Source: Accumulibacter sp. (GTDB taxonomy: Bacteria; Pseudomonadota; Gammaproteobacteria; Burkholderiales; Rhodocyclaceae). From it: a stretch of DNA of 64,000 nucleotides. The notes under the pieces were generated by a model. That model worked only from the letters and a program-made list of their open reading frames with translations. It was not told where the DNA came from and searched no databases. The DNA lies in contig JACKLX010000005.1 in NCBI GenBank assembly GCA_024235695.1, positions 124,001 through 188,000 on the forward strand. The letters run 5' to 3'. Positions 6,891 to 24,878 of this stretch are shown here, in pieces. Within the stretch, counting starts at the first letter, position 1. Every line of letters starts with the position of its first letter. The position numbers were made by a program, and so were the translations under genes.

Positions 6891-7051
6891 AGACAAAACC
6901 CCGAGTGACGGTGGTGCTGCACACGCCTGTGAGCTGGCCGCAACCGCACCGGCCTGCCCGTCCGGCCAGCAAACTCACGTTTCTGCAAGGTGGTTGCCGC
7001 TCGTTGACCAAGAACACCGCAATCTCCTGCCGCGACGCCACACCGAAAGCC

Positions 7052-8533
7052 GTGCGAACTTACCCCAGCCCTGCCCCGCGGCCGCCGTCAGATGCCGCGC
7101 CGCGCCCGGTTGCGGCGTTCGACCGGGGATCTGGTCGACGGCTCCGGCGTACCCTGTCGATGGCGCTGCTCGCCGCGGCGCTGACCGCGCCGGCACTTGC
7201 CGCCAACGACCGGCAGCGTGGCGATGACAGCGAATCGACGTCGTCGGGCGAGGTCGCCGCAAAGCAGAGCGACCTGAAGTCGCTGCGCGCTCAGATCGAG
7301 GCGATGCGCCGGGAAATGGCCGCCGCGGAAGGCTCACGCAAGGATTCGCTGGACCAGTTGAAGGACGCCGACCGGGCGATCTCGTCGACGCAGCGCGAAC
7401 TGCACGAATTGTCGGCGCAGATCGCCGCGCTGCAGGCAACGATCAAGGAACTCGAACGGCAGTCGCGCGCCCTCGAGGAGGAACTGGGCGCGCAGCAGGA
7501 GCAACTGGCGAAGCTCCTCTATCGACAATACCTGCGCGGCAAGCCCGACCCCCTGCGCTTGTTCCTCAATGGCGACGACGCGCACCAGTTGGCACGCGAT
7601 CTGTACTACCTGGAGGCGATCGGTCGGGCACGCAGCGCGCTGCTGGCCAGTATCGAATCAAGCCTGCGGCGTCAGCAGGCGCTGGCCGCCGACAGCCGGC
7701 AACAGGCAGCGCTGCTCGCCGCTGCCGAAAGCCGGCAGGCGGATGAGCACGCCAAGCTGCTGGTCCAGCGCGAGCAGCGGCAAGCGACACTCGACAGGCT
7801 GTCGAAACAGATCACCGCGCAGCGGCGCGAAATAGGCAACCTCGAACGCGACGAGAAGCGTTTGACGGAGCTTGTCGACCGCCTGGCGAAAATCATCGCC
7901 GCCAAGGCCGCCGAGGCACGCCGGGAAGCGCAACGACAGGAACTGGCGCGGCAGGAACGAGCGCGGCGACTGGAGCGCGCACGGCAGGAGCACGAGCGAC
8001 ACGAACGTGAGCGACAGGAGGCCAGCCAGGAGAAACCGGCACGGGCGACAGCGCCACCGGCCACGGAGGAGGCCGCGAGCAAACGCCAGGCTAGTGAAAC
8101 GCGCCGCGACATGCCGCCGGAAGCGCCGGTCGCCGGCAATCTGGCGAAGATGAAGGGCGCCCTGCGCCTGCCGACCAACGGCTCGATAAGCAATCGCTTC
8201 GGCGCCGCGCGACAGGAGGGCAGCACCTGGAAAGGCTTGTTCATCCGGGCCAGCGCCGGCAGCGCCGTGCACAGCGTCGCCGGCGGCCGCGTGGTGTTCG
8301 CCGAATGGATGCGCGGCTTCGGCAACCTGCTGATCGTCGATCATGGCAGCGACTACCTGTCGATCTACGCCAACAACGATTCGCTGCTCAAAGAGGTGGG
8401 TGACGACGTGCGCGCGGGTGAAAGCGTTGCCACGGTTGGCAACACCGGTAGCAATCCGGAATCCGGTTTATACTTTGAGATTCGTTATCAAGGGAAACCG
8501 CTTGACCCACTCGCCTGGATCAACGGCAAATAA
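7052..8533 (+). CDS. envC: Murein hydrolase activator EnvC
   Basis: An exported protein with a signal segment around 7130-7205 (RRTLSMALLAAALTAPALA), a long coiled coil rich in Gln, Arg and Glu, and a C-terminal degenerate LytM/M23 domain (about the last 125 residues). The usual zinc ligands of M23 peptidases are gone: KGLFIR where H-x-G-x-D is expected, YANN instead of HxH, LYFEIR instead of LHFEIR. This matches EnvC, which activates amidases at the septum rather than cutting. The start is uncertain: GTG 7052 is used here, but the frame opens at GTG 6905 and an ATG lies at 7160. The ctpA gene follows closely. Confidence 0.87.
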   Translation: MRTYPSPAPRPPSDAAPRPVAAFDRGSGRRLRRTLSMALLAAALTAPALAANDRQRGDDSESTSSGEVAAKQSDLKSLRAQIEAMRREMAAAEGSRKDSLDQLKDADRAISSTQRELHELSAQIAALQATIKELERQSRALEEELGAQQEQLAKLLYRQYLRGKPDPLRLFLNGDDAHQLARDLYYLEAIGRARSALLASIESSLRRQQALAADSRQQAALLAAAESRQADEHAKLLVQREQRQATLDRLSKQITAQRREIGNLERDEKRLTELVDRLAKIIAAKAAEARREAQRQELARQERARRLERARQEHERHERERQEASQEKPARATAPPATEEAASKRQASETRRDMPPEAPVAGNLAKMKGALRLPTNGSISNRFGAARQEGSTWKGLFIRASAGSAVHSVAGGRVVFAEWMRGFGNLLIVDHGSDYLSIYANNDSLLKEVGDDVRAGESVATVGNTGSNPESGLYFEIRYQGKPLDPLAWINGK

Positions 8534-10440: not shown

Positions 10441-11205
10441 ATGGCGATGAACGACGGGCAGTTGCTTCGCTACAGCCGCCACATCCTGCTCGACGAAATC
10501 GGCATCGAAGGCCAGCAGAGGATACTCGATGGCAGCGCGCTGATCGTCGGCGCTGGCGGCCTGGGCTCACCGGCGGCGCTCTATCTCGCCTCCGCCGGCT
10601 TGGGAAGAATCGTTCTCGCCGACGGCGACACGGTCGACCTGACCAACCTGCAGCGCCAGATCCTGCACACACAGGAGCGGCTCGACCAGCCGAAAGCGCT
10701 GTCGGGCCGGGTCGCGCTGGCGCAGATCAACCCCGAGGTGCGCGTCGAGGCGATCACCAGCCGCCTGGCCGGCGACGCCCTGACCGCGCTGGTCGCCGAC
10801 ACCGACGTCGTTCTCGATTGTTGTGACAACTTCGCGACGCGGCACGCGGTCAATCGCGCCTGCGTCAGCCAGCGCACGCCGCTGGTTTCGGGAGCAGCGA
10901 TCCGCTTTGCCGGGCAGCTGGCGGTATTCGACAGCCGCCAACGCGACACGCCCTGTTATCACTGCCTGTTCCCGGAAGGTGACGACATCGAGGACTTGCG
11001 CTGCGCGGTGACCGGCGTATTCGCACCGCTCACCGGCATCATCGGCGCGATGCAGGCCGCCGAAGCGCTGAAGCTGGTCGCCGGTGCCGGCGAGGTCGCA
11101 CTTGGCCGGCTGTGGCTGCTCGATGGCCTGTCGATGGAATGGCGGAGCGTCAGATTCGGCCAGGATCCGTCGTGCCCGGTTTGTACGCCGGCCGGCGTCA
11201 GCTGA
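10441..11205 (+). CDS. moeB: E1-like adenylyltransferase, MoeB/ThiF/HesA family
   Basis: A 254-residue enzyme that adenylates the C-terminal Gly-Gly of a ubiquitin-like sulfur carrier (MoaD or ThiS). Visible motifs: GAGGLGSPAALYLASAG near residue 38, DGDTVDLTNLQRQ near 60, a Cys4 zinc site (CYHC and CPVC), and a Cys in DLRCAVTGVFAPLTG in the catalytic position. The start was set at the ATG at 10441, just after the preceding stop; 10447 is also possible. The symbol is a best guess, since MoeB and ThiF cannot be separated reliably by eye and no moa or thi gene is adjacent. Confidence 0.86.
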   Translation: MAMNDGQLLRYSRHILLDEIGIEGQQRILDGSALIVGAGGLGSPAALYLASAGLGRIVLADGDTVDLTNLQRQILHTQERLDQPKALSGRVALAQINPEVRVEAITSRLAGDALTALVADTDVVLDCCDNFATRHAVNRACVSQRTPLVSGAAIRFAGQLAVFDSRQRDTPCYHCLFPEGDDIEDLRCAVTGVFAPLTGIIGAMQAAEALKLVAGAGEVALGRLWLLDGLSMEWRSVRFGQDPSCPVCTPAGVS

Positions 11206-12304
11206 AGCGGGCCAGCAGACGAAGGTCGGGACCGACCAGGCGCTGGTCGCGGATCGCCAGCGCACGCCTGCCGGCCAGCGCCTCGAGAGCGGGCAGGGCG
11301 AACATCCCTTGTGCCGCGTCACCGAGCAGGCACGGCGCCAGGTAGAGCAGCAGTTCGTCGACCAGACCGGCAGCAAGCAGCGCACCGCTCAGTCCCAGGC
11401 CGGCTTCGGCGTGCACTTCGTTGATTCCGCGACGCGCCAGTTCGCCGAGCAAGGCGTCGAGATCGACCCGACCGTCGCGGCCTGGCAGCAACAGTACTTC
11501 GGCGCCACGCTGTTCGAGGGCGGCGATCCGGTCGTGGTCGCCGACCGCGGCCGCCACCAGGACGCTGCCGCCGTGCAGCAATCGGGCCGCCGGCGACAGT
11601 TCGAGCCGACCATCGACGACCACCCTCAACGGCTGTCGCAATTCCCCCGTCATGGCGTCGAAAGCGCGCACGTTGAGTTGCGGGTCGTCATGGCGAATGG
11701 TGCCGATACCGGTCAGGATGGCGCAGGCACGGGCCCGCCAGCGATGGCCGTCCTGGCGGGCGGCGGGACCGGTCAGCCACTGGCTGACGCCATTCTCAAG
11801 GGCCGTCTTGCCGTCCAGGCTGGCGGCCATTTTTAGCCGCAGCCACGGCCGCGAACGCGTCATGCGTGCGACGAAACCGATGTTGAGTTCGCGCGCCTCG
11901 GCCGCCAGCAGGCCGCACTGCGCCAGCACTCCGGCGTTGCGCAAGGCAGACAGGCCCTGCCCGGAAACCAGCGGATTGGGATCCTCCATCGCCGCCACGA
12001 GGCGCCCGATGCCCGCCGCCAGCAGCGCTTCAACGCAGGGTGGCGTGCGGCCATGATGGCTGCACGGTTCGAGCGTGACGTAGGCGGTCGCGCCGCGGGC
12101 CCGCTCACCGGCGATTCGCAGCGCATGCACTTCGGCGTGCTCGCCGCCAGCCCGGCGATGCCAGCCTTCGCCGACGATCTCGCCGTCGCTGACGACGACG
12201 CAGCCGACACGGGGATTGGGAGTGGTGGTGTGAAGACCGAGTTCGGCCAGGCGCAGCGCCCGCGCCATCGACTGGTGATCGGTGGCGCTGAACGGCGCCG
12301 GCAT
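11198..12304 (-). CDS. ribD: Bifunctional riboflavin deaminase/reductase RibD
   Basis: A 368-residue two-domain enzyme of riboflavin synthesis. The N-terminal zinc deaminase has HAEVHAL (His56-Ala-Glu) and PCSHHGRTPPC (Cys81, Cys90). The C-terminal reductase begins near residue 150 (RPWLRLKMAASLDGK) and ends with an FSRAS-like, Leu-rich stretch. It acts on the pyrimidine product of GTP cyclohydrolase II. The ATG shares one base with the stop of nrdR (TGATG), so the two are coupled. It overlaps the 3' end of the convergent moeB by 8 bases. Confidence 0.95.
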   Translation of the reverse strand: MPAPFSATDHQSMARALRLAELGLHTTTPNPRVGCVVVSDGEIVGEGWHRRAGGEHAEVHALRIAGERARGATAYVTLEPCSHHGRTPPCVEALLAAGIGRLVAAMEDPNPLVSGQGLSALRNAGVLAQCGLLAAEARELNIGFVARMTRSRPWLRLKMAASLDGKTALENGVSQWLTGPAARQDGHRWRARACAILTGIGTIRHDDPQLNVRAFDAMTGELRQPLRVVVDGRLELSPAARLLHGGSVLVAAAVGDHDRIAALEQRGAEVLLLPGRDGRVDLDALLGELARRGINEVHAEAGLGLSGALLAAGLVDELLLYLAPCLLGDAAQGMFALPALEALAGRRALAIRDQRLVGPDLRLLARFS

Positions 12305-12774
12305 CAGCGGCCCAGTTTCTGCGGCGAACGCGAGACTTCGCGAATCAGCTTCGAGAACTCATCGACATCCTCGAAGTTGCGATAGACCGAAGCGAAGCGT
12401 ACATACGCCACCTTGTCGAGCTTCTTCAACTCGAGCATCACCATTTCACCGATCTTCTCCGACGCCAGCTCGCGCTCGCCAAGCGCCAGCAGCTTTCCCT
12501 CGATGCGGGCGATCGCCGCCTCGACCGCCTCGGTGCCGACCGGTCGCTTGCGCAGCGCCAGCCACAGGCTGGCGGCGAGTTTCTCGGCATCGAAGTCAAC
12601 CCGCGAGCCGTTCTTCTTGATCACCTGCGGCATGCGCAGTTCGGCCCGCTCGTAGGTCGTGAAGCGCTTGTCGCATTTCAGGCAGCGTCGGCGGCGGCGG
12701 ACGATGTCGCCGTCGTCATTGATCCGGGTGTCGGCGACGGTCGTCTCGTCGGCACCGCAGAACGGGCACTTCAT
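12304..12774 (-). CDS. nrdR: Transcriptional repressor NrdR
   Basis: A 156-residue repressor of ribonucleotide reductase genes. The zinc ribbon is C3-x2-C6 with C31-x2-C34 ([25 protein letters not shown]), and the ATP-cone domain spans about 49-139. The start at 12774 removes a short non-conserved upstream extension and places the CPFC motif at the N-terminus as in all NrdR proteins. It overlaps glyA upstream by 4 bases and touches ribD downstream; glyA-nrdR-ribD is a standard proteobacterial order. Confidence 0.97.
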
Positions 12775-14030
12775 CCTGCCCGACCACCGTAGACCGGAAA
12801 CTTCTTGCACAGCGCCGCGCCTTCGGCACGAACGCGCGCGAGGACCGTTTCGTCGCCGGGGGCGTCAAGCACGTCGGCAATCAGGTGCGCCACCTGCTCG
12901 GACTCGATCTCGGTGAAGCCACGGGTGGTCATCGCCGGCGAACCGATGCGGATCCCGGACGTGACGAAGGGCTTCTCGGGATCGTTGGGGATGGCGTTCT
13001 TGTTGACCGTGATGTGCGCAGCGCCGAGCGCCGCTTCGGCTTCCTTGCCGGTAATCTTCTTGGCCCGCAGATCGACCAGAAAAACGTGCGATTCGGTGCG
13101 GCCCGAGACGATGCGCATGCCCCGCTCCTCGGACAGCACGCGCGACAGAACGCGCGCATTGGCCACCACCTGCTCCTGGTACTTGACGAAGCCAGGCGTC
13201 AGCGCCTCCCTGAAAGCCACCGCCTTGGCGGCGATGACGTGCATCAGCGGGCCGCCCTGCAGGCCTGGAAAGACGGCCGAGTTGATCGCTTTCTCGTGCT
13301 CGGCCTTCATCAGGATGACGCCACCACGCGGACCACGCAGCGTCTTGTGCGTCGTCGAGGTCACGACGTCGGCGTGCGGCACCGGGTTCGGGTAGCAGTC
13401 GGCGGCGATCAGGCCGGCGTAATGCGCCATATCGACCATGAAGATCGCACCGATCTCCCTGGCGACGCGCGCAAAGCGTTCGAAGTCGATGCGCAGCGAG
13501 TACGCCGACGCACCGGCGATCAGGATCCGTGGCTTGTGTTCGCGCGCCAGCGCTTCCATCTTCGCGTAATCGATCGCTTCATGCCGGTCGAGACCGTAGG
13601 CAACGACGTTGAACCACTTGCCCGACATGTTGAGCGGCATGCCGTGCGTCAGGTGTCCGCCTTCGGCGAGGCTCATTCCCATGATCGTGTCGCCCGGCCT
13701 GGCGAAAGCCATCAGCACCGCCTGATTGGCCTGCGATCCGGAATTCGGCTGGACGTTGGCGGCCTCGGCGGAAAACAGCTTCTTGAGACGTGCAATCGCC
13801 AGTTGCTCGGCGACATCGACGTGTTCGCAGCCGCCGTAGTAGCGCTTGCCGGGGTAGCCTTCGGCGTACTTGTTGGTCAGCTGCGAGCCCTGTGCGGCCA
13901 TCACCGCGTGGCTGACATAATTCTCGGAAGCGATCAGCTCGATGTGTTCTTCCTGGCGACGATTCTCGTTTTCGATCGCCCGCCAGATCTCGGGATCCAC
14001 CTTCGCCAGTGTGTCGTTAGCCGAAAACAT
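12771..14030 (-). CDS. glyA: Serine hydroxymethyltransferase
   Basis: A 419-residue PLP enzyme that converts serine and tetrahydrofolate to glycine and methylene-tetrahydrofolate. Visible: [10 protein letters not shown] near residue 31, [11 protein letters not shown] near 60, and the PLP lysine in [15 protein letters not shown] near 228. The ATG at 14030 ([16 protein letters not shown]) matches the family N-terminus; the frame is open 14 codons upstream without support. First gene of the glyA-nrdR-ribD group. Confidence 0.97.
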
Positions 14031-15667: not shown

Positions 15668-15696
15668 TTGACAATGTCGAAAATAACGCATACGTT
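15668..15696 (+). promoter_or_regulatory. Candidate sigma-70 promoter of the sugar-acid island
   Basis: TTGACA at 15668-15673 is a perfect -35 box; 17 bases later TACGTT (15691-15696) is a plausible -10. The first gene starts at 15729 with a strong GGAGG. Confidence 0.6.
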
Positions 15697-15697
15697 A
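15684..15697. promoter_or_regulatory. Palindrome TAACG-N4-CGTTA over the -10 box (candidate operator)
   Basis: TAACG (15684-15688) and CGTTA (15693-15697) form a perfect 5-bp inverted repeat overlapping the -10 box of the island promoter, the expected place for a repressor. The natural candidate is the GntR-family regulator at the end of the island. Confidence 0.45.
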
Positions 15698-15728: not shown

Positions 15729-16709
15729 ATGACAACCGAAACCATTGCCGCCCGCATTTCGCTCGCTGCCCTGAGCTTTGCCGGCAGCGACCTGCAACGC
15801 CCCGAATGCGTCCTGACGACGGCCAGCGGTGCCTTGTATACCTCTGACTGGCGCGGCGGCGTCGCGCGCACGCTGCCTGACGGCAGCCAGAAGCTGTTTG
15901 CGGCCAGGCTGCCCGATGGCCGGCCGCTCAAGCCCAACGGCATCGCCCTGCGGGCCGACGGCAGCTTCCTGCTGGCCGACCTCGGTGACCATCAGGGCGG
16001 CATTTTCCATCTCCAGCGCGACGGCACGGTGACGCCCTTTCTCGAGGCCGTCGACGGGGTACCGCTGCCACCGTCGAACTACGTCGTCGAGGACGGCCAG
16101 CGCACCTGGCTCACCGTCAGTACCCGCCAGCAGCCGCGTGCCCTGGCCTATCGCAGCGACATCGCCGACGGCTTCGTGGCGGTGATCGACCAGCGCGGTG
16201 CGCGCATCGTCGCCGACGGCCTCGGCTACACCAACGAAGCGGTGCCGAGTCCCGACGGTCAGTGGCTGTACGTCAATGAAACCTTCGCCCGCCGCTTGAC
16301 GCGCTTTCGCATTGCCGCCGACGGCAGCCTGTCGGGTCGCGAAACGGTCACCACTTTCGGTCACGGCACCTATCCGGACGGCCTCAGTTTCGACGTCGAG
16401 GGCGCTGTCTGGATCACCTCCATCGTCTCCAATCGCGTCCTTCGCGTCCTCCCTGACGGCAGTCAGGTGTTGATGCTGGAAGACTGCGATCAGCAACATG
16501 TGAACTGGGTGGAGGAGGCCTTCCAGGCCGGCGAAATGGGCCGCCCGCATCTCGACAAGGCACGCGGTCGCTTTCTGAAAAACATCTCCAGCCTGGCTTT
16601 TGGCGGTCCCGGCCTGCGTACCGCCTACCTCGGCTGCCTGCTCGACGATCGCATCGCCTTCTTCGACTCGCCGGTGGCCGGGCATCCGCCCTACCACTGG
16701 CACTTCTGA
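15729..16709 (+). CDS. SMP-30/gluconolactonase-like protein
   Basis: A 326-residue beta-propeller protein of the SMP-30/gluconolactonase/LRE family, with a divalent-metal site. Motifs: PECV near residue 23, LKPNGIALRADGSFLLAD near 62-79, GLGYTNEAVPSPDGQWLYV near 160-178 and GTYPDGLSFDVEGAVW near 215-230. In sugar catabolism these enzymes hydrolyse aldonolactones to aldonic acids; family members also have other hydrolase roles. The start has CCGGAGG 7-8 bases upstream. First gene of the island that includes TRAP transporter, kinase and aldolase, which supports a lactonase role. Confidence 0.82.
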   Translation: MTTETIAARISLAALSFAGSDLQRPECVLTTASGALYTSDWRGGVARTLPDGSQKLFAARLPDGRPLKPNGIALRADGSFLLADLGDHQGGIFHLQRDGTVTPFLEAVDGVPLPPSNYVVEDGQRTWLTVSTRQQPRALAYRSDIADGFVAVIDQRGARIVADGLGYTNEAVPSPDGQWLYVNETFARRLTRFRIAADGSLSGRETVTTFGHGTYPDGLSFDVEGAVWITSIVSNRVLRVLPDGSQVLMLEDCDQQHVNWVEEAFQAGEMGRPHLDKARGRFLKNISSLAFGGPGLRTAYLGCLLDDRIAFFDSPVAGHPPYHWHF

Positions 16710-16761
16710 CACCGCCCATTGCCGCTGTCACGCTGGCAACGCTACCGGGGAACGACCGATT

Positions 16762-17880
16762 GTGAGCAAGCAGCTTTTCAAGATAGCCGTCCTGCCCGGC
16801 GACGGCATCGGCAGCGAGATCATGCGCGCCTGCATCGACGTCCTGCAGCGCCTGCTGGCCGACCAGGCAGCTTTCGCGCTGACCTACGTCGATTGTCCCG
16901 GTGGTGCGCAGCACTACGCCGACAAGGGCGTGGCCCTGCCCGACAGCACGCTGCGCCATTGCGAAAGCGCCGATGCCATTCTCTTCGGCGCCATGGGGCT
17001 GCCGCACATTCGCTACCCGGATGGCACGGAAGTGAATCCGCAACTCGGCCTGCGCAAGGATTTCGATCTCTATGCCGGCGTCCGGCCGATCCGTTCGATC
17101 CCCGGCGTACCCTCGACGCTCGCCGATCCGCGTGCGGCAGAGATCGACCTGGTGCTGATCCGCGAACAGTCGGAGGGCCTTTTCTACGGCCGCCTGTATC
17201 CGGAAAAGCAGCCGCCGGCGAACGACGACGAGGCCTTTGACCTTGGCCGCATCTCGCGCAAGGGTTCCGAGCGACTATTCGATTACGCCTTTCGCTTGGC
17301 GCGCCAGCGACGCGCAGCCAATCCCGCGAAGGGCCGCGTCACTTGCGTGGACAAGGCCAACGTGCTGAACAGCATGGCCTTCTTCCACCAGATCTACTGG
17401 CAGCGCGCCAGGCTCAACCCGGACATCGCTGCCGATCACTGCTACGTCGACGCGATGGCGCTGAACCTGCTCAAGCGGCCCTGGGACTACGACGTGCTGC
17501 CGACCGAAAACCAGTTCGGCGACATTCTTTCGGATCTCGCCGCGGGCCTGGTCGGCGGTCTCGGAATGTCGCCATCCGGCGACATTGGCGACCGCTACGG
17601 GCTGTTCCAACCCAGCCACGGCAGTGCCCCGGATATCGCCGGACAGGGCAAGGCCAACCCGACCGCGATGATCCTCTCGGCGGCGATGATGCTCGAATGG
17701 CTGGGCGAAAAACACGCCCTGCCGGAAAGCACGGCGGCGGCTGCCCGCCTCGGCCGGGCAGTCGATGCGGCCTTCGCCACCGGTCGGCTGCGCTCGGTCG
17801 AAATGGGTGGCAGCGACGGCACGCAACGCATCGCGGCAGCGATCTGCGACGCCCTCGCCCGACAGTCCGTCGTGGCGTAG
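16762..17880 (+). CDS. Isocitrate/isopropylmalate dehydrogenase family enzyme
   Basis: A 372-residue NAD-dependent decarboxylating dehydrogenase of the LeuB/tartrate dehydrogenase type. Visible: [10 protein letters not shown] at 11-20, the substrate-arginine region [17 protein letters not shown] near 93-110, [11 protein letters not shown] near 133, the catalytic Lys in VDKANVL near 197, [17 protein letters not shown] near 232-248 and [15 protein letters not shown] near 290. GTG start at 16762. No leuC or leuD is nearby, so leucine synthesis is unlikely; in this island it probably oxidises a hydroxy acid. It could be a malate or tartrate dehydrogenase-like enzyme or act on a sugar acid. Confidence 0.85.
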
Positions 17881-17884
17881 AACG

Positions 17885-18964
17885 GTGGCCACGACCCTCA
17901 AGGTGGTCGCCGTTGGCGCCGGCTACTTCAGCCAGTTTCAGTATCAGGGCTGGCGCAACATCGACACCGTCGACATCGCCGCGCTGACCAACCGCGACGT
18001 CATCAAGGGACAGGCGCTGGCCGCTCGTTACGGCGTTCCCCGGGTGTACGGCCAGGTCGAGGAGATGCTCGACCGCGAACGGCCCGACCTGCTCGACATC
18101 ATCACCACGCCGGCGACCTATCGCCAATACATCACCGCCGCGGCCGAACGCGGCATCGCGGTGATCTGCCAGAAGCCCTTCGGCCGCAGCTTCGGCGAAG
18201 CCGTGCAACTGATCGAGATCGCCGAGCAGGCCGGCATCCCGCTGGTGGTGCACGAGAATTTCCGCTGGCAACCCTGGTATCGCGAAGCCAGACGGCTCAT
18301 CGACAGCGGCCTGCTGGGGACGCTGCACAGTGCCGCTTTCCGCCTGCGTCCGGGTGACGGACAGGGTCCGCAGGCGTATCTCGACCGCCAACCCTATTTC
18401 CAGCAAATGCCGCGCCTGCTGGTTTACGAAACGGCAATCCACTGGATCGATACCTTTCGCTTTCTGCTCGGCGAGGTAGCGGCGGTATATGCGCGCCTTC
18501 GCCGGATCAATCCGGTGATCGCCGGCGAGGATGCGGCGTACATCGTCTTCGAGTACGACTCGGGCGCCACCGGCTTGTTCGATGGCAACCGCCTCAACGA
18601 TCACGTTGCCGACAACCCGCGCCGAACGATGGGCGAGCTGTGGCTGGAAGGCAGCGGCGGCGTGCTGCGTCTCGATGGCGACGCGCGCCTGTGGTGGAAA
18701 CCGCATCACGGTGACGAGCGCCAGCACCTCTACCACCAGGGGCAGAGCGACAGCTTTGGTGGCGGCGCCTGCGAGTGGCTGCAGCGCCACGTCGTCGAAC
18801 ACCTGTTGCATGGCGGGTCACTGGAAAACACCGCGCGCGAGTACCTCGCCAATCTCGCGGTGCAGGAAGCGATCTATCGCTCCCACGTGGAAGGGCGAAG
18901 GATCGAGATGGCCGGCTTCGATCCCGAGCAAACCCCGGCAGGGCCAACTTTCGACGGCCAATGA
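17885..18964 (+). CDS. Gfo/Idh/MocA family oxidoreductase
   Basis: A 359-residue NAD(P)-dependent dehydrogenase with an N-terminal Rossmann fold ([19 protein letters not shown] near residues 5-23) and the family EKP-like motif as [12 protein letters not shown] near 97-108. The second domain carries [13 protein letters not shown] near 123-135 and [17 protein letters not shown] near 180-196. Family members oxidise sugars, inositols or their derivatives. GTG start, 4 bases after the dehydrogenase upstream, so probably one operon. Substrate unknown. Confidence 0.86.
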
Positions 18965-18989
18965 GCACACCACCAAGGAGGAAAACACC

Positions 18990-20003
18990 ATGAAACGCAG
19001 AACATTCTTTGCTCGCAGCTTGCTCACCGCCAGTCTGGCAGCGCTCTTTGCCCTGCCGCTGTCGGCCAGTGCGGCGACCGTCCTCAAGTTCAGCCATACC
19101 GACCAGCCCGGCGGCGCCCGCCAGAAAGCCGCCGAGATGTTCGCGCAGAAGGTTGCCGAATACACCCAGGGGCGATACGAGGTGAAGGTGTATCCGGCCG
19201 GCCAGCTTGCCAACGACCCCAAGGCGGTCGAGCAGCTGCAACTGGGCGGCATCGATTTCACGGTCTCCAGCACCGGCACCTACGCAACGCACCTGCCAAC
19301 GCTCAACCTTTCGCTGCTGCCGTATCTGGTCGAGAACTACGAACAGGGCTGGAAGCTCTACGACGACTCGAAGTGGCTGCAGGCGCAGTTCGCCAAGGCA
19401 CCGGCCAAGGGCTTCCGCTTCCTCGCCACCTGGGAAGCCGGTTTCCGCGACATGACCACCAAGGATCCACTGGCCTCGCCGGCTGATGCCGATGGCAAGA
19501 AGCTGCGCAGCTTCCCGAACGAGATGATGCGCTGGACCCTGGAGGCGATCGGCTTCAACGTCGTCATCCTGCCGTTGCCCGAGGTCTACCTGGCGATCCA
19601 GCAGGGTGCGGTCAGCGGTCAGGAAAACCCGATCGACACGATCTTTGCGAACAAGTTCTACGAGGTCGCGCCGAACGTCACGCTGACCCACCACGTCTAC
19701 AGTCCGATCCCGCTGACGATGTCCGAGAAGACCTGGGCGAAACTCTCTGCCGCCGACCAGGCGGCGGTGGTGAAGGCTGGAGCGGAAACCGCCACCTGGA
19801 TCCGCAACGAGATCCGCAGCAACGACGACCGCCAACTGGCCGAAATGCAGAGCAAGGGAGCCAAGATCGCGCGCCCGAACCTCGGCGCGTTCCGCGACGC
19901 CGTCAAGCCGGTCTACGCCAAGGCGCGGGAGAAATACGGTGCCGACGTCGACGCCTTCATCGCCGACGCTGACGCCGTACGCAAAGCGCTGCCGGCGAAG
20001 TAG
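18990..20003 (+). CDS. dctP: TRAP transporter substrate-binding protein, DctP type
   Basis: A 337-residue periplasmic binding protein. Signal peptide MKRRTFFARSLLTASLAALF followed by ALPLSASA; then a DctP pattern: LKFSHTDQPGGARQKAAEMF, YEVKVYPAGQLANDPKAVEQ, FRDMTTKDPLASPADADGKK, LPLPEVYLAIQQGAVSGQEN (the segment around the conserved Arg/Gly-rich ligand site). AAGGAGG lies upstream of the ATG. Binds an organic acid and passes it to the DctQM membrane parts encoded next. The ligand is probably a sugar acid, from context. Confidence 0.92.
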   Translation: MKRRTFFARSLLTASLAALFALPLSASAATVLKFSHTDQPGGARQKAAEMFAQKVAEYTQGRYEVKVYPAGQLANDPKAVEQLQLGGIDFTVSSTGTYATHLPTLNLSLLPYLVENYEQGWKLYDDSKWLQAQFAKAPAKGFRFLATWEAGFRDMTTKDPLASPADADGKKLRSFPNEMMRWTLEAIGFNVVILPLPEVYLAIQQGAVSGQENPIDTIFANKFYEVAPNVTLTHHVYSPIPLTMSEKTWAKLSAADQAAVVKAGAETATWIRNEIRSNDDRQLAEMQSKGAKIARPNLGAFRDAVKPVYAKAREKYGADVDAFIADADAVRKALPAK

Positions 20004-20576
20004 ATGGATCAGGCGCTTGCCGATCAAGGTCAGGGTGCGGCCGCGGCGGCAGCGCGGCTGCTGCCCGCCGGACCACCGGCGCCGCTGCCGATCCGCTGGC
20101 TTGGCCGGCTGGTGGACTGGAGCGTCGTGCTGATCGGCGCCGCGATGGCCACGCTGGTCTTTGCCAACGTCATCGTGCACAACGTCTTTCACGGCGACAT
20201 CGCCTGGACAACCGAACTCTGCGAGTTGCTGATGGTCTGGGTGACCTTTCTCGGCGGCGCCTCGGCGACGCGGCGGGGCGCGCACATGGTGATTGGCGAA
20301 CTGCTCGATCGCCTAGCGCCGCCATCGCGACGGTTTGCCGACGCCGCAATCCAGGTTCTCGTGCTGCTCACCCTGGGCTTGCTCGTCTGGTACGGCATCG
20401 GCATCGCCGAGGCCGGACTGATGAGCCAACTGACCGTGCTGGGCTGGCCGATCGCGACCCAGTACGCGGCGCTGCCGATCGCCTCGGCGATCACCATGGT
20501 CTTCGTTGCCTGGGACATCGTCGAGATTCTCCGCGGCCGCCCACACGACGAGCGCTACGGGACGCAACAGCCATGA
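20004..20576 (+). CDS. dctQ: TRAP transporter small membrane subunit, DctQ type
   Basis: A 190-residue protein with four predicted membrane helices between about residues 40 and 175, and the DctQ core TTELCELLMVWVTFLGGASATRRGAHM (given in parts: TTELCELLMVWVTFLGG, then RRGAHM) near 70-96. It starts directly after the dctP stop (no gap) and overlaps dctM by 4 bases (ATGA). Together they form a sodium-coupled secondary uptake system. Confidence 0.92.
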   Translation: MDQALADQGQGAAAAAARLLPAGPPAPLPIRWLGRLVDWSVVLIGAAMATLVFANVIVHNVFHGDIAWTTELCELLMVWVTFLGGASATRRGAHMVIGELLDRLAPPSRRFADAAIQVLVLLTLGLLVWYGIGIAEAGLMSQLTVLGWPIATQYAALPIASAITMVFVAWDIVEILRGRPHDERYGTQQP

Positions 20577-21856
20577 TTCTTTTCGAGACCTTCGGCCTGT
20601 TCATGCTCGCCGGCCTGCTTGGCGTGCCGCTGGTCTACGGCCTGCTGCTGGCAACGGCAACGATGATCTGGTTGAAAGACCTCGGACATCCGCTGACGTC
20701 GGTCTTCCTGAGCTACATCGGCGGTGTCGAGCCCTTCGTGCTGATCGCCGTGCCACTGTTCATGCTGGCCGGCGAAATCCTCTCCCGCGGCGGCGTCGGC
20801 ATGCGCATTGTCACCTTCGCGACCACGCTGCTCGGCTTCCTGCCCGGCGGCCTCGGCATCGCCACCGTCTCCTCGTGTCTGATTTTCGGCGGCGTCTCCG
20901 GTTCGGCGATCGCCGACACCGCGGCGATCGGCTCGGTAATGACGCCGGCCATGGTTCGCAAAGGCTACAAGGCCGCGTTCGCCGGCGCCCTGATGTCGAC
21001 CGCCGGAACGCTGGCGGTGGTGATGCCACCGTCAATCCCGATGCTGGTCTATGCCTTCGTCTCGGGAGCGTCGGTTCGCGACCTCTTTCTCGCCGGGGTG
21101 GTTCCGGCGTTCGCATTCGCCATCGGCCTGTCGATCGACTGCGTGTGGACCGGCAAGCGTACCGGCTGCGACAGGGGCGGAGAACGGGCACCGGCGAGCG
21201 AGATCTGGGCGGCATTTCTCAAGGCCTTCCCGGCTCTCTTGATGCCGGTCGTCATCCTCGGTGGCATCTGGTCAGGATATTTCACGCCCACCGAAGCGGC
21301 AGCCGTTGCCGCCGCCTATGGCTTGTTCGTCTCGATGGTGATCTACCGCGACCTGCGGCCGCGCGACCTGCCGGCGCTGCTGCTCAAGTCCTTCACCACC
21401 AGCGCCGTGGTAATGGTGGTCATCGGCGCGACCTCCTGCCTGGCGTGGCTGATCACGGTCGAACAGGTGCCGGCACAGATTGCCGGTTTCGTCGAGCATT
21501 ACGCGCACTCGCAGTGGACTTTCCTGCTGCTGGTCAACTTTTCGCTGCTGGCACTTGGCTGCTTCATCGAGCCGGTTCCGGCGCTGCTGCTGGCGGCACC
21601 ACTGCTGGTGCCGCTCTCCGCCCCCTTCCATATCGACCCCGTTCACCTCGGTCTGATCATGACCTGCAACCTGGCAATCGGCTTGTACACGCCGCCGGTC
21701 GGTGGCACGCTGATGGTCGGTGCGCGGCTGGCGGGGGTTGGCATGGGTGCCGTCGTCAAGCATCTGATTCCGCAGATGATGATCAGCATCTGCATCCTGC
21801 TGGTGGTCACCTATATCCCGGCGATCAGCATGTCGCTGGTTCATCTGGTGCGCTGA
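20573..21856 (+). CDS. dctM: TRAP transporter large permease, DctM type
   Basis: A 427-residue membrane protein with about 12 helices. DctM patterns: AVPLFMLAGEILSRGGVG near 57-75, FGGVSGSAIADTAAIGSVMTP near 105-125, MPPSIPMLVYAFVSGASV near 150-168, GIWSGYFTPTEAAAVAAAYG near 230-250. It carries the transport channel. It overlaps dctQ by 4 bases and is followed 2 bases later by the DUF1537 kinase, so transport and catabolism are transcribed together. Confidence 0.94.
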   Translation: MILFETFGLFMLAGLLGVPLVYGLLLATATMIWLKDLGHPLTSVFLSYIGGVEPFVLIAVPLFMLAGEILSRGGVGMRIVTFATTLLGFLPGGLGIATVSSCLIFGGVSGSAIADTAAIGSVMTPAMVRKGYKAAFAGALMSTAGTLAVVMPPSIPMLVYAFVSGASVRDLFLAGVVPAFAFAIGLSIDCVWTGKRTGCDRGGERAPASEIWAAFLKAFPALLMPVVILGGIWSGYFTPTEAAAVAAAYGLFVSMVIYRDLRPRDLPALLLKSFTTSAVVMVVIGATSCLAWLITVEQVPAQIAGFVEHYAHSQWTFLLLVNFSLLALGCFIEPVPALLLAAPLLVPLSAPFHIDPVHLGLIMTCNLAIGLYTPPVGGTLMVGARLAGVGMGAVVKHLIPQMMISICILLVVTYIPAISMSLVHLVR

Positions 21857-21858
21857 CC

Positions 21859-23130
21859 ATGACCGTCCTGCTCGGTTGCATTGCCGACGATTTCACCGGC
21901 GCCACGGACCTTGCCAACATCCTGGTGCGCGGCGGCATGCGCACCGTCCAGACGATCGGCGTGCCGACGGCGGGAACCGATCTGCCCGCTTGCGATGCCC
22001 TGGTCGTTGCGCTGAAATCGCGCACCATCCCGGCCGCCGACGCCGTCGCCCAGTCACTGGCAGCACTCGCATGGCTGCAAGCGCACGGCGCGCGGCAGTT
22101 CTTCTTCAAGGTCTGCTCGACCTTCGACTCGACCGATGCCGGCAATATCGGTCCGGTCGCCGACGCCCTGCTCGAAGCCCTCGGCGAGAGGATCGCGGTG
22201 GTCTGTCCGGCGTACCCGGCCAACCGCCGCACGGTGTTTCAGGGCCATCTGTTTGTCGGCGAGGTTCTGCTGTCGGATTCGCCGATGCGCAATCACCCGC
22301 TGACACCGATGACCGACGCCAGCCTGGTGCGTGTCCTGGGCCGTCAAAGCCGCCACCCCGTCGGCCTGCTGCCCTGGTCGGCAGTCAGCGCGGGCGGCCC
22401 GGCGATCGAGCAGGCGCTGGCCGCGCTGGTCGCGCAGGGAGCGCGCCATGCCGTGGCCGACGCGGTGCGCGACGAAGACCTGTTCACGCTTGGCGCCGCG
22501 TGCCGCCAACGGCGCCTGCTGACCGGCGGCGCCGGACTGGCGCTCGGCCTGCCGCAGAACTTTCGCGCCGCCGGGCTGCTGCCCGAACGAGCGGACAGCG
22601 ATCCGCTGCTTGGCGTCGGCGGCGGCGCGGCAGTTCTCGCCGGCAGCTGCTCGGAAGCCACCCGGAGTCAAGTGGCCGAGATGGCTAGCCGCCAGCCGAG
22701 CGTGCTGATCGACCCGCTTGCCGGAGGGACTCCCGTCGAGCTCGCGGCCAGCGCGCTGCGCCAGGCGAGCGGCGCGCTTGGCCGCGGCGAGACAGTGCTG
22801 TTCTACTCCAGCGCCGACCCGGCAACGATCGCCAAGGTCCAGTCACGGCTCGGCCAGGAGCAGGCCGCAACACTGGTCGAGCAGACCTTCGCCGAACTGG
22901 CGAAAGGCCTGCTCGCGCAGCAGGTGCGCCGGCTGATCGTCGCTGGTGGCGAAACCTCCGGCGCGGTGGTCGCGGCACTCGGCGTGCAAGCGCTGGCGAT
23001 TGGCCCGCAGATCGACCCCGGCGTTCCGTGGACACGCGTGCTTGGCGAGCAACCGCTGTTGCTGGCGCTCAAGTCCGGCAACTTCGGCCGTCCCGACTTT
23101 TTCAGCCGGGCGCTGGAGATGCTGCGATGA
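21859..23130 (+). CDS. otnK: Four-carbon acid sugar kinase family protein (DUF1537), OtnK/DtnK-like
   Basis: A 423-residue protein of the DUF1537 family, shown in the literature to phosphorylate four-carbon sugar acids such as 3-oxo-tetronate or D-threonate. N-terminal motif LGCIADDFTGATDLAN at 4-19, FKVCSTFDSTDAGNIGPVAD near 83-102, YPANRRTVFQGHLFVGE near 117-133, and the C-terminal nucleotide half with VAGGETSGAVVAALG near 359-373 and LKSGNFGRPDFF near 400-411. It overlaps the next gene, a class II aldolase, by 4 bases; kinase plus aldolase/decarboxylase is the OtnK-OtnC arrangement. The symbol is by analogy; the exact substrate is not shown. Confidence 0.85.
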   Translation: MTVLLGCIADDFTGATDLANILVRGGMRTVQTIGVPTAGTDLPACDALVVALKSRTIPAADAVAQSLAALAWLQAHGARQFFFKVCSTFDSTDAGNIGPVADALLEALGERIAVVCPAYPANRRTVFQGHLFVGEVLLSDSPMRNHPLTPMTDASLVRVLGRQSRHPVGLLPWSAVSAGGPAIEQALAALVAQGARHAVADAVRDEDLFTLGAACRQRRLLTGGAGLALGLPQNFRAAGLLPERADSDPLLGVGGGAAVLAGSCSEATRSQVAEMASRQPSVLIDPLAGGTPVELAASALRQASGALGRGETVLFYSSADPATIAKVQSRLGQEQAATLVEQTFAELAKGLLAQQVRRLIVAGGETSGAVVAALGVQALAIGPQIDPGVPWTRVLGEQPLLLALKSGNFGRPDFFSRALEMLR

Positions 23131-23759
23131 GCGCCGAATCGGCGGCACGCGAAGCTCTCTGCCGCACCGCCCGCTCGCTGTACGAACGCGGCCTGACGCA
23201 TGGCTCGACCGGCAATCTCAGTCTCCGCCTGGACGATGGCTACCTGCTGACACCGACCGGCGCGTCGCTCGGCGAACTCGATCCGGCCCGGCTGGCACGG
23301 CTGGACGGCAGCGGTCGGCACCTCGCCGGCGACCAGCCGACCAAGGAATCCTTCCTGCATCTGGCGATGTATCGGCAGCGGCCGGCCAGCGGCGCGGTGG
23401 TGCACCTGCATTCGACGCATTCGGTGGCGGTGTCGGTACTCGCCGAGCTCGACGCGAGCGACCTGCTGCCACCGCTGACCGCCTACTACGTGATGCGCAT
23501 TGGCTGCCTGCCGCTGGTGCCCTATTTTCCGCCGGGCGATGCCGCGCTGGCCGACGCGGTCTGCGGCCTGGCCGGCAAACACCACGCGCTGCTGCTCGCC
23601 AACCACGGCCCGGTCGTTGCCGGCAGCTCGCTGTCGGCAGCCACCGATGCGGTCGAGGAACTCGAGGCGACGGCACGGCTCTACCTGCTGCTGCGCGGTC
23701 AGCCGCTACGCCTGCTCTCGCCGGCGCAGGTTGCGGAACTGCGCCGGCGCTATCCTTGA
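23127..23759 (+). CDS. otnC: Class II aldolase/adducin family protein, OtnC-like decarboxylase
   Basis: A 210-residue zinc enzyme with HGSTGNLSLRL near 25-35, the catalytic Glu74 in PTKES, metal ligands His93 and His95 in VVHLHSTHS, and a third His in LANHGPVVAG near 159. OtnC decarboxylates 3-oxo-tetronate 4-phosphate to dihydroxyacetone phosphate; L-fuculose-phosphate aldolase-like activity is the alternative. The ATG overlaps the kinase stop by 4 bases, so the two products should be made together. Confidence 0.86.
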   Translation: MSAESAAREALCRTARSLYERGLTHGSTGNLSLRLDDGYLLTPTGASLGELDPARLARLDGSGRHLAGDQPTKESFLHLAMYRQRPASGAVVHLHSTHSVAVSVLAELDASDLLPPLTAYYVMRIGCLPLVPYFPPGDAALADAVCGLAGKHHALLLANHGPVVAGSSLSAATDAVEELEATARLYLLLRGQPLRLLSPAQVAELRRRYP

Positions 23760-23770
23760 GGACAGCCACC

Positions 23771-24061
23771 ATGTATGTCATTGCCGTCGACTTGACGATT
23801 CACCCGCAGCATCTGCCGGCGTTCATGCCCTTGCTGCTCGAGAACGCGCGGCTCTCGCGCGAACGCGAGGCGGCTTGCCGGCGCTTCGACGTCTGCCAGG
23901 ATCCGCTGCAGCCCGAGCACGTCTTTCTCTACGAACTGTACGACGACCGTGCGGCCTTCGACGCGCACCTGGCAAGCGCACACTTCAAGGCCTTTGACAC
24001 GGCCGCGCAAGGAATGCCGGCGAGCAAGACGGTCCATGCCTATCAACTGATCGGCGCGTAA
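23771..24061 (+). CDS. ABM-fold small protein, LsrG-like (putative quinol monooxygenase family)
   Basis: A 96-residue single-domain protein of the antibiotic biosynthesis monooxygenase fold. It opens MYVIAVDLTIHPQHLPAF and then has FDVCQDPLQPEHVFLYELYD followed by an AFDAHLASAHFKAF stretch; this order matches LsrG (FDVLQDP ... FYIYEAY ... AFHKTTPHYK). LsrG is an isomerase of phospho-AI-2, so family membership does not imply oxygenase activity. It follows otnC by 11 bases and is probably part of the same pathway. Confidence 0.82.
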   Translation: MYVIAVDLTIHPQHLPAFMPLLLENARLSREREAACRRFDVCQDPLQPEHVFLYELYDDRAAFDAHLASAHFKAFDTAAQGMPASKTVHAYQLIGA

Positions 24062-24110
24062 ACGCCGCCAGCGGATACAATCCGGCCCTTCGACGCCAGG
24101 CTTGAGGTCA

Positions 24111-24878
24111 ATGAAATCATCCACTCCGCGCACCACCAGCGCACCGCGCAGCGCCGCCCGGCCGGCGACCCCGGCCGCCGGCAAGGCCGCGGGCGCGCTA
24201 CGGCCGAGCGCCCGTCGCGCCCGCGAACCCTTCGCCGATCAGGCCTACCGCGACCTGCGCGCGCGCATCCTCGACAACCGCATGCCGTCTGGCGAGCAAT
24301 ACACCGAAGCGGAACTGGCGGCCCTCCTGCACATGAGTCGAACGCCGACCCGTGAAGCGATGCTGCGCCTGGCCAGCGAAGGCCTGGTTGAAGTTCGTCC
24401 GCGGCACGGCATGCGCGTCAAGCCGGTGTCGACCGTCGACATGCGCGAAATCTACGAGGTGCTGACCGCGCTGGAATCAACGGCGGCCGCGCTGGCGGCG
24501 GCGCGTGCCGACCACGGCGACGCGATTCGCCAGTTGCGTGCCGCGATCAGCGACATGGACGCGGCGCTCGCGAGCGATGACCTGCCGGCCTGGGCAGCGG
24601 CCGACGAGCGCTTTCATACCTTGCTGGTCGCCGCGGCCGGCAACCGGCGGCTGAGCGAGCTGGTGCAAACCTACGTCGGCCAGTCACATCGGGTGCGCAT
24701 GCAGACCTTGCGCCTGCGCCCGAAACCCCTCACCTCCAATCGCGATCACGAGAGCGTCGTCGACGCTGTCGAGGCTCACGACGCGGCGCGCGCACGCGAG
24801 ATTCACTACGCCCACCGCGAGCAAAGCGGGCGCATGCTGGTCGAGTTGCTGGCCAGGCACGGCCTGACACAGCTCTGA
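24111..24878 (+). CDS. GntR-family regulator with FCD domain
   Basis: A 255-residue protein. After a Ser/Ala/Pro/Arg-rich N-terminal tail comes a winged helix-turn-helix (YRDLRARILDNRMPSGEQYT, then ALLHMSRTPTREAMLRLASE) and an FCD ligand-binding domain from about residue 115 (ALESTAAALAAARADHGD, with metal-site-like DERFHTLLV and the HxxxH-type C-terminal helix). FCD regulators sense small organic acids and usually repress neighbouring genes. It closes the island with a 49-base gap, so it probably regulates it. Start could also be TTG 24102. Confidence 0.86.
   Translation: MKSSTPRTTSAPRSAARPATPAAGKAAGALRPSARRAREPFADQAYRDLRARILDNRMPSGEQYTEAELAALLHMSRTPTREAMLRLASEGLVEVRPRHGMRVKPVSTVDMREIYEVLTALESTAAALAAARADHGDAIRQLRAAISDMDAALASDDLPAWAAADERFHTLLVAAAGNRRLSELVQTYVGQSHRVRMQTLRLRPKPLTSNRDHESVVDAVEAHDAARAREIHYAHREQSGRMLVELLARHGLTQL

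Follow-up and report, generated by a model that had tools for sequence, protein, structure and literature searches.

In bacteria, the four-carbon sugar acids L-threonate and D-erythronate are broken down through LtnD (or DenD), OtnI, OtnK and OtnC, corresponding to ygbJKLM in E. coli (Zhang et al. 2016, cited in excerpts of PMC12540250 and PMC10580937). Excerpts of PMC12540250 describe a four-step pathway of LtnD, OtnI, 3-OtnK and 3-OtnC, with an Aldolase_II-type OtnC that is tied to the 3-oxo route requiring the isomerase, and a three-step L-threonate bypass (LtnD-2-OtnK-2-OtnC; Guo et al. 2024, cited therein) that lacks OtnI and employs an OtnC of the F_bP_aldolase type. Here we describe a ten-gene island in a 64,000-nt stretch of Accumulibacter sp. 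DNA (assembly GCA_024235695.1, contig JACKLX010000005.1, here C5, positions 124,001–188,000 of the forward strand), hereafter called the window. The island resembles the four-step pathway in having OtnK and an Aldolase_II-type OtnC. In place of LtnD/DenD and OtnI, it has an isopropylmalate-dehydrogenase-like protein with phenylalanine at the catalytic tyrosine site (IPM-F), an LsrG-like protein of the ABM family (ABM), a Gfo/Idh/MocA dehydrogenase (Gfo) and a lactonase, together with a tripartite ATP-independent periplasmic (TRAP) transporter. Like the bypass, it is without OtnI, but the bypass keeps LtnD and its OtnC belongs to the other family. The island route differs from the textbook tetronate route. 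Our preferred reading, which we regard as possible although somewhat short of probable, is that IPM-F would oxidise a tetronate without decarboxylation and ABM would isomerise 2-oxo- to 3-oxo-tetronate, the two replacing LtnD and OtnI in a TRAP-fed operon that would yield dihydroxyacetone phosphate.

Assignment of the island kinase and aldolase

The island kinase passed the model for 3-oxo-tetronate kinase with 590.6 bits (cut-off 350) and fell far short of that for OiaK, the 3-oxo-isoapionate kinase (138.4 bits, cut-off 700). The aldolase passed the OtnC model (310.2 bits, cut-off 250); it matched PF00596 only, not the F_bP_aldolase family of the bypass, and no further OtnC above the cut-off was present in the assembly. 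An earlier note on this sequence had recognised an OtnK/OtnC-type kinase–decarboxylase pair, and both members indeed lie above curated cut-offs. By family assignment, the end of the pathway is the known OtnK/OtnC pair, and by the rule given in the excerpts of PMC12540250 an OtnC of the Aldolase_II type would require 3-oxo-tetronate. The kinase scores also separate the island from the D-apiose/D-apionate pathways (mentioned in excerpts of PMC11747546), which resemble it in having a lactonase, a 5uhw-related Gfo/Idh/MocA enzyme and a DUF1537 kinase.

In a tree of 123 kinases, built by a quick method and with some long branches, the kinases linked to IPM-F were scattered among canonical OtnKs, corresponding to at least 12 changes of partner when unlabelled rows were left out of the count. 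Such repeated recruitment of OtnK speaks for one and the same intermediate, 3-oxo-tetronate, in both kinds of loci. By path length, the window kinase was nearest to that of L018, from another Accumulibacter bin, and then to that of the canonical locus L204; the latter belongs to the same genome as L016, whose own core locus (see below) is without OtnK.

LtnD, DenD and OtnI are missing from the island

As the earlier note had claimed, neither LtnD nor OtnI is encoded in the island, and the nearest flanks contained neither. There was no match to NAD_binding_11 anywhere on C5 and none to PF01261 above the cut-off in the assembly; this bin is 83.7% complete, and the searches do not prove that genes of LtnD or OtnI type are absent from the genome. 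The OtnI model (NF043033) matched nothing but two short stretches at C5:30979-31342, which differ in reading frame and lie 93 kb ahead of the window. These fragments (about 6980–7343 of locus L219) cover residues 2–132 of the model and resemble a decayed isomerase gene. Matches to DenD in this incomplete bin were all below the cut-off (best 70 bits, cut-off 325). An LtnD is encoded elsewhere, on contig C13 (458 bits on the NCBIfam model for L-threonate dehydrogenase, against a cut-off of 350), where it adjoins a second OtnK that is cut off by the contig end. The placing of DenD in the 3-hydroxyisobutyrate-dehydrogenase type, also made in the earlier note, may be mistaken: a short-chain dehydrogenase/reductase (SDR)/GalE-like protein gave a weak match to the DenD model (35 bits), a hint that DenD itself belongs to the SDR type.

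IPM-F occurs with ABM and avoids OtnI and LtnD

Two samples of loci were examined. IPM-F neighbourhoods were obtained by scanning a collection with the IPM-like protein (best 80 loci of a longer list) and from plasmid records. The other sample started from OtnK, which was found in 81 of 398 Pseudomonadota genomes; its 94 loci were chosen regardless of the dehydrogenase, leaving out the window genome's own two OtnK loci, and were scored by profiles built from the first set.

OtnI was found in 70 of the 94 OtnK loci, LtnD in 56 and IPM-F in six. None of the six IPM-F loci carried OtnI, compared with 70 of the 88 loci without IPM-F (Fisher p 1.7e-4), and none carried LtnD (56/88 without IPM-F; p 0.0034), while ABM was present in five of the six and in none of the 88 (p 1.1e-7); these p values, uncorrected for kinship, are too small because the six loci are partly related, coming from three families and five genera, with L176 and L179 sharing one genus. 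Neither IPM-F nor ABM occurred in any of the 70 OtnI loci. A homologue that retains the tyrosine (Tyr-type) was found in four of the 94 loci, three of which had both OtnI and LtnD. Both OtnI and IPM-F were missing from 18 loci, showing that other routes exist too. Loci of this group, among them L107, L114, L120, L127, L150 and L154, had OtnK, mostly with OtnC, whereas OtnI, ABM and IPM-F were all missing within about 9 kb; loci of this kind may hold further enzymes for the first half of the pathway.

From the IPM-F side, we tabulated the 77 loci whose flanks exceed 5.5 kb in either direction, which omits 22 of 99 IPM-F loci nearer an end. OtnK was present in 16 of the 77 (L012 was tallied as negative despite an OtnK fragment): 13 had ABM alone, L023 had ABM, OtnI and LtnD, L050 had OtnI and LtnD, and L149 had neither isomerase. 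Hence IPM-F beside OtnK was nearly always accompanied by ABM or OtnI (15 of 16 loci; 17 of 18 when loci with shorter flanks are included), which argues that ABM does the job of OtnI. Among the 61 loci without OtnK, ABM was found in four and an OtnI-like gene near IPM-F in another four; the OtnI-like genes of L044 and L090 scored 297 and 299 bits, just under the OtnI cut-off of 325.

The pairing of an IPM-like gene with a GntR gene recurred, often with Gfo, lactonase and ABM, with or without OtnK and OtnC, and with transport by TRAP, Tct or ABC systems. We counted 39 core loci, defined as IPM-F plus at least one partner gene and including the window, so that the set is no mere coincidence. The core recurs in Burkholderiales, Sulfitobacter, rhizobial plasmids and others, which does not support the view of the earlier note, which suggested searching for the same gene order, that the combination is unusual.

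IPM-F lacks the catalytic tyrosine of its family

IPM-F scored 283.7 bits on the Iso_dh family and matched 16 NCBIfam models, reaching the cut-off of none; public annotation calls such genes isocitrate/isopropylmalate dehydrogenase family. The sequences of the IPM tree were thinned at 82% identity from 101 to 45 rows, with the window row dropped in favour of that of L018; the tree itself is a quick one with some long branches. Like the beta-decarboxylating dehydrogenases LeuB, Icd and DmlA/tartrate dehydrogenase, all 43 thinned IPM-F rows have the arginine trio, the lysine and the three metal-binding aspartates intact. Aligned with E. coli LeuB and DmlA, they differ from these enzymes as follows: LeuB Tyr145 is replaced by Phe in all 43 (Phe141 in the window), and the pocket residue Leu95 by Gln in 38 and His in five. 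Phe occupied the catalytic Tyr site in all 99 sequences of the IPM-F clade examined. The tyrosine was retained in all six other IPM-like homologues of the loci and in E. coli Icd, LeuB and DmlA. Plasmid homologues at a greater distance had Tyr in six of seven cases, the exception being a Rhodococcus protein with Phe. A tandem IPM-F pair that one table suggested in L087 was a labelling artefact, there being one segment only.

In this family, the catalytic tyrosine serves the decarboxylation/enol-protonation step and the lysine serves hydride transfer. Loss of the former with retention of the latter fits, without proving, the oxidation of a 2-hydroxy acid that has no beta-carboxylate, such as a tetronate, and we infer from these residues that IPM-F could oxidise tetronate without decarboxylation.

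The ABM protein is related to LsrG

Five solved relatives of the island ABM protein were found, including LsrG (3qmq, 2gff), which NCBIfam names (4S)-4-hydroxy-5-phosphonooxypentane-2,3-dione isomerase. The LsrG reaction is a carbonyl shift between adjacent carbons. Seventeen residues were invariant across 19 ABM homologues, and nine of the 16 that could be aligned are identical in LsrG, including E33, D40, E55, H66 and H71. At 37.3 bits on the LsrG model (cut-off 135) the island protein is not LsrG itself, and it differs further from LsrG in being located with OtnK and OtnC. Public annotation of these genes reads antibiotic biosynthesis or quinol monooxygenase. The resemblance to LsrG suggests that ABM could isomerise 2-oxo- to 3-oxo-tetronate.

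A conserved palindrome precedes the island

The sequence TAACGCATACGTTA lies 32–45 bases upstream of the lactonase start. With one mismatch allowed, its degenerate form, TAAYGYATRCRTTA, matched the 3.83-Mb assembly at this site alone, and a backward control gave no match. At the same stringency it was found in 30 of the 39 core loci (window among them; 21 exact), compared with 1 of 90 OtnK-only loci, 2 of 60 other IPM-F loci and 0 of 37 other loci; five shuffles gave 0–1 of 39. The motif was derived from some of the same loci, and part of the 30/39 is thus built in, which is not the case for the single genomic match. In the rhizobial loci the palindrome stands directly upstream of an ABC sugar transporter, which suggests that import belongs to the same regulon. 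The island's GntR protein probably binds the palindrome.

Proposed route and alternative explanations

The starting compound would be a four-carbon sugar acid, that is, a tetronate or its lactone or aldose. The TRAP system would import the acid. Gfo might oxidise C1 of an aldose to give a lactone, which the SMP-30 lactonase would open to the tetronate; this is the weakest step of the scheme. IPM-F would then oxidise the C2 hydroxyl with NAD and Mg, without decarboxylation, instead of LtnD/DenD, and ABM would shift the carbonyl from C2 to C3 instead of OtnI. As their families predict, OtnK would phosphorylate 3-oxo-tetronate and OtnC would decarboxylate the product to dihydroxyacetone phosphate, with control probably exerted by the GntR protein at the palindrome. 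The suggestion in the earlier note that the kinase is fed by a different route stands in so far as the usual dehydrogenase and isomerase are missing here and avoided where IPM-F is present; the longer aldonate that it invoked is not needed, since all 99 sequences have Phe in place of the catalytic Tyr and ABM offers an isomerase step, so that a four-carbon acid would suffice. A wider version of this proposal, which we consider rather doubtful, is that IPM-F represents a branch of Iso_dh that gave up decarboxylation through the Tyr-to-Phe change and is now a plain tetronate 2-dehydrogenase, that ABM is a second, unrelated 2-oxo-tetronate isomerase, and that the pair jointly replaces LtnD and OtnI, with OtnK/OtnC repeatedly added to it, under a single conserved GntR operator, among Alphaproteobacteria, Burkholderiales and related groups.

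Several observations weigh against the replacement of LtnD and OtnI by IPM-F and ABM. Most of the full-flank IPM-F loci (53 of 77) had no OtnK, ABM, OtnI or LtnD nearby, and IPM-F may therefore have other roles; the surroundings of the Phe-bearing Rhodococcus plasmid homologue likewise contained no annotated OtnK. L023 (Variovorax) and L050 carry both sets of enzymes, so that the replacement is not strict, L149 has IPM-F and OtnK with neither isomerase, and L016, L020 and L024 have ABM and IPM-F without OtnK in genomes with a canonical OtnI elsewhere. Co-occurrence of IPM-F and OtnK at the genome level (16/17, background 81/398) was rejected as proof, because 15 of 20 genomes with a Bradyrhizobium-type IPM-F also had OtnK. 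The first steps fit poorly as well: TRAP systems import acids, which makes aldose oxidation followed by a lactonase odd, and the nearest solved structure to Gfo (30% identity), 5uhw, a Mg/NAD enzyme that we take to be an aldonate (apionate) oxidoisomerase, is a poor match for an aldose dehydrogenase. The D-apiose/D-apionate pathways are reportedly the subject of work by Carter and colleagues in 2018. Gene content, the families of OtnK and OtnC, the avoidance of OtnI and LtnD, the Tyr-to-Phe change and the conserved palindrome are results of computation; substrate, IPM-F and ABM reactions, the part of Gfo and the lactonase, and GntR binding are what we infer. Finally, in an older view, found in excerpts of PMC2728841 (2009), the LsrG product is 2-phosphoglycolate and no isomer.

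The substrate might instead be longer or carboxy-branched: a five- or six-carbon sugar-acid lactone would be opened by the lactonase and oxidised by Gfo, and IPM-F would perform an oxidative decarboxylation to 3-oxo- or 2-oxo-tetronate. We consider this unlikely, although IPM-F retains the arginine trio, lysine and metal aspartate of the decarboxylating family, a lactonase (SMP-30 or metallo-beta-lactamase type) accompanies Gfo in 27 of 29 loci, and a Lichenicola plasmid combines a Tyr-type IPM homologue with a beta-propeller lactonase, an amidohydrolase and OtnK. This set resembles an ascorbate route with a carboxy-branched intermediate that Stack and colleagues are said to have described in 2020. 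The tyrosine that serves decarboxylation and protonation is Phe in all 99 IPM-F sequences, however, and L030 and L145, with OtnK, IPM-F and ABM, had no lactonase or Gfo by profiles, although genes for an SDR and an IlvD/Edd dehydratase lie close by in L030. The last two loci also bear on the idea, which we find improbable, that Gfo oxidises and isomerises tetronate in one step, as an oxidoisomerase, and that other compounds are the substrates of IPM-F and ABM: the OtnK loci L009, L010, L015, L030 and L145 keep IPM-F and ABM but yielded no Gfo, which so cannot be the general source of 3-oxo-tetronate, and the identity of Gfo to 5uhw is only 30%. To canonical tetronate catabolism, with the LtnD on C13, an OtnI missing from the incomplete bin and the other island enzymes forming an unrelated pathway beside OtnK/OtnC, we give equally little credence. 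The LtnD and second OtnK at the C13 contig end, the 83.7% completeness and the double sets of L023 and L050 are in its favour; against it, the palindrome occurs once in the assembly, before the island only, and in other genomes IPM-F and ABM go together and keep apart from OtnI and LtnD.

In the open-licence PMC literature, none of the papers among the matches listed connects tetronates with an ABM protein or with a dehydrogenase of the isopropylmalate type; earlier print elsewhere is possible. If the preferred reading, with IPM-F as dehydrogenase and ABM as isomerase, is correct, many genomes carry misleading annotation names for both genes, candidate enzymes become available for two missing steps in the catabolism of four-carbon sugar acids, and a textbook enzyme family includes a natural Tyr-to-Phe switch that splits oxidation from decarboxylation.

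Gene organization and related loci

The ten genes lie on one strand with intergenic spacings of -4 to +52 bases (Table 1), in agreement with the inventory, families and packing given in the earlier note; all three TRAP components are present. On either side, between 8557 and 30484, the ten proteins that were scanned were unrelated to the island and mostly housekeeping, including a cation efflux protein, SHMT, NrdR and RibD on the left, and a weak CBS match, SecA and ArgJ on the right. Solved DctP relatives point to no particular TRAP ligand: 4pdd, 4pdh and 4p9k are reportedly bound to D-erythronate, but sialic-acid binders rank equally high.

Table 1. Features of the island (positions in the window)
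Feature	Position	Strand	Evidence
14-bp palindrome TAACGCATACGTTA (consensus TAAYGYATRCRTTA), probable GntR-regulator operator	15684..15697		Motif search
SMP-30/gluconolactonase-family lactonase	15729..16709	+	Pfam SGL 73 bits
IPM-F, isopropylmalate-dehydrogenase-like, Phe141 at catalytic Tyr site	16762..17880	+	Pfam Iso_dh 283.7 bits; GTG start assumed
Gfo/Idh/MocA dehydrogenase	17885..18964	+	Pfam GFO_IDH_MocA; nearest solved structure 5uhw; GTG start assumed
TRAP solute-binding protein DctP	18990..20003	+	Pfam
TRAP small permease DctQ	20004..20576	+	Pfam
TRAP large permease DctM	20573..21856	+	Pfam
3-oxo-tetronate kinase OtnK (DUF1537; SBD_N + NBD_C)	21859..23130	+	NF043035 590.6 bits, cut-off 350
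Class II aldolase OtnC (Aldolase_II, PF00596)	23127..23759	+	NF043034 310.2 bits, cut-off 250
ABM-fold LsrG-like protein, proposed 2-oxo-tetronate isomerase	23771..24061	+	Pfam ABM 65 bits
GntR/FCD regulator	24111..24878	+	Pfam; ATG start; longer TTG start at 24102

Consensus searches gave no sigma-70 promoters (1.0 in shuffles) and six terminators (5.6 in shuffles), which is not above chance. By eye, a TTGACA was seen upstream of the palindrome in the window and in L016–L018.

The rhizobial loci L009, L010 and L015, on plasmids of Rhizobium, Agrobacterium and Sinorhizobium that are all of the conjugative type in PLSDB, combine the IPM-F/ABM/OtnK/OtnC core and the ABC sugar transporter with an SDR, a type II haloacid dehalogenase-like protein and an aldehyde dehydrogenase. 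The Lichenicola cladoniae plasmid locus (L230, 4748–11456) encodes, besides its Tyr-type homologue, lactonase and amidohydrolase, an annotated arylsulfatase and an OtnK of 549 bits, and possibly represents a different, decarboxylating route into 3-oxo-tetronate.

L018 (JACKLW010000006.1) carries a version of the island between what seem, by gene order and length, to be the same neighbours. At 11056–13512 this relative is without TRAP: an open frame of 819 residues has Gfo at its start (92% identity over the first 230 residues) and OtnC at its end (90%), with a shortened OtnK (frame 11759–12880) between the two parts in another reading frame. The fused frame is either a deletion or an assembly fault.

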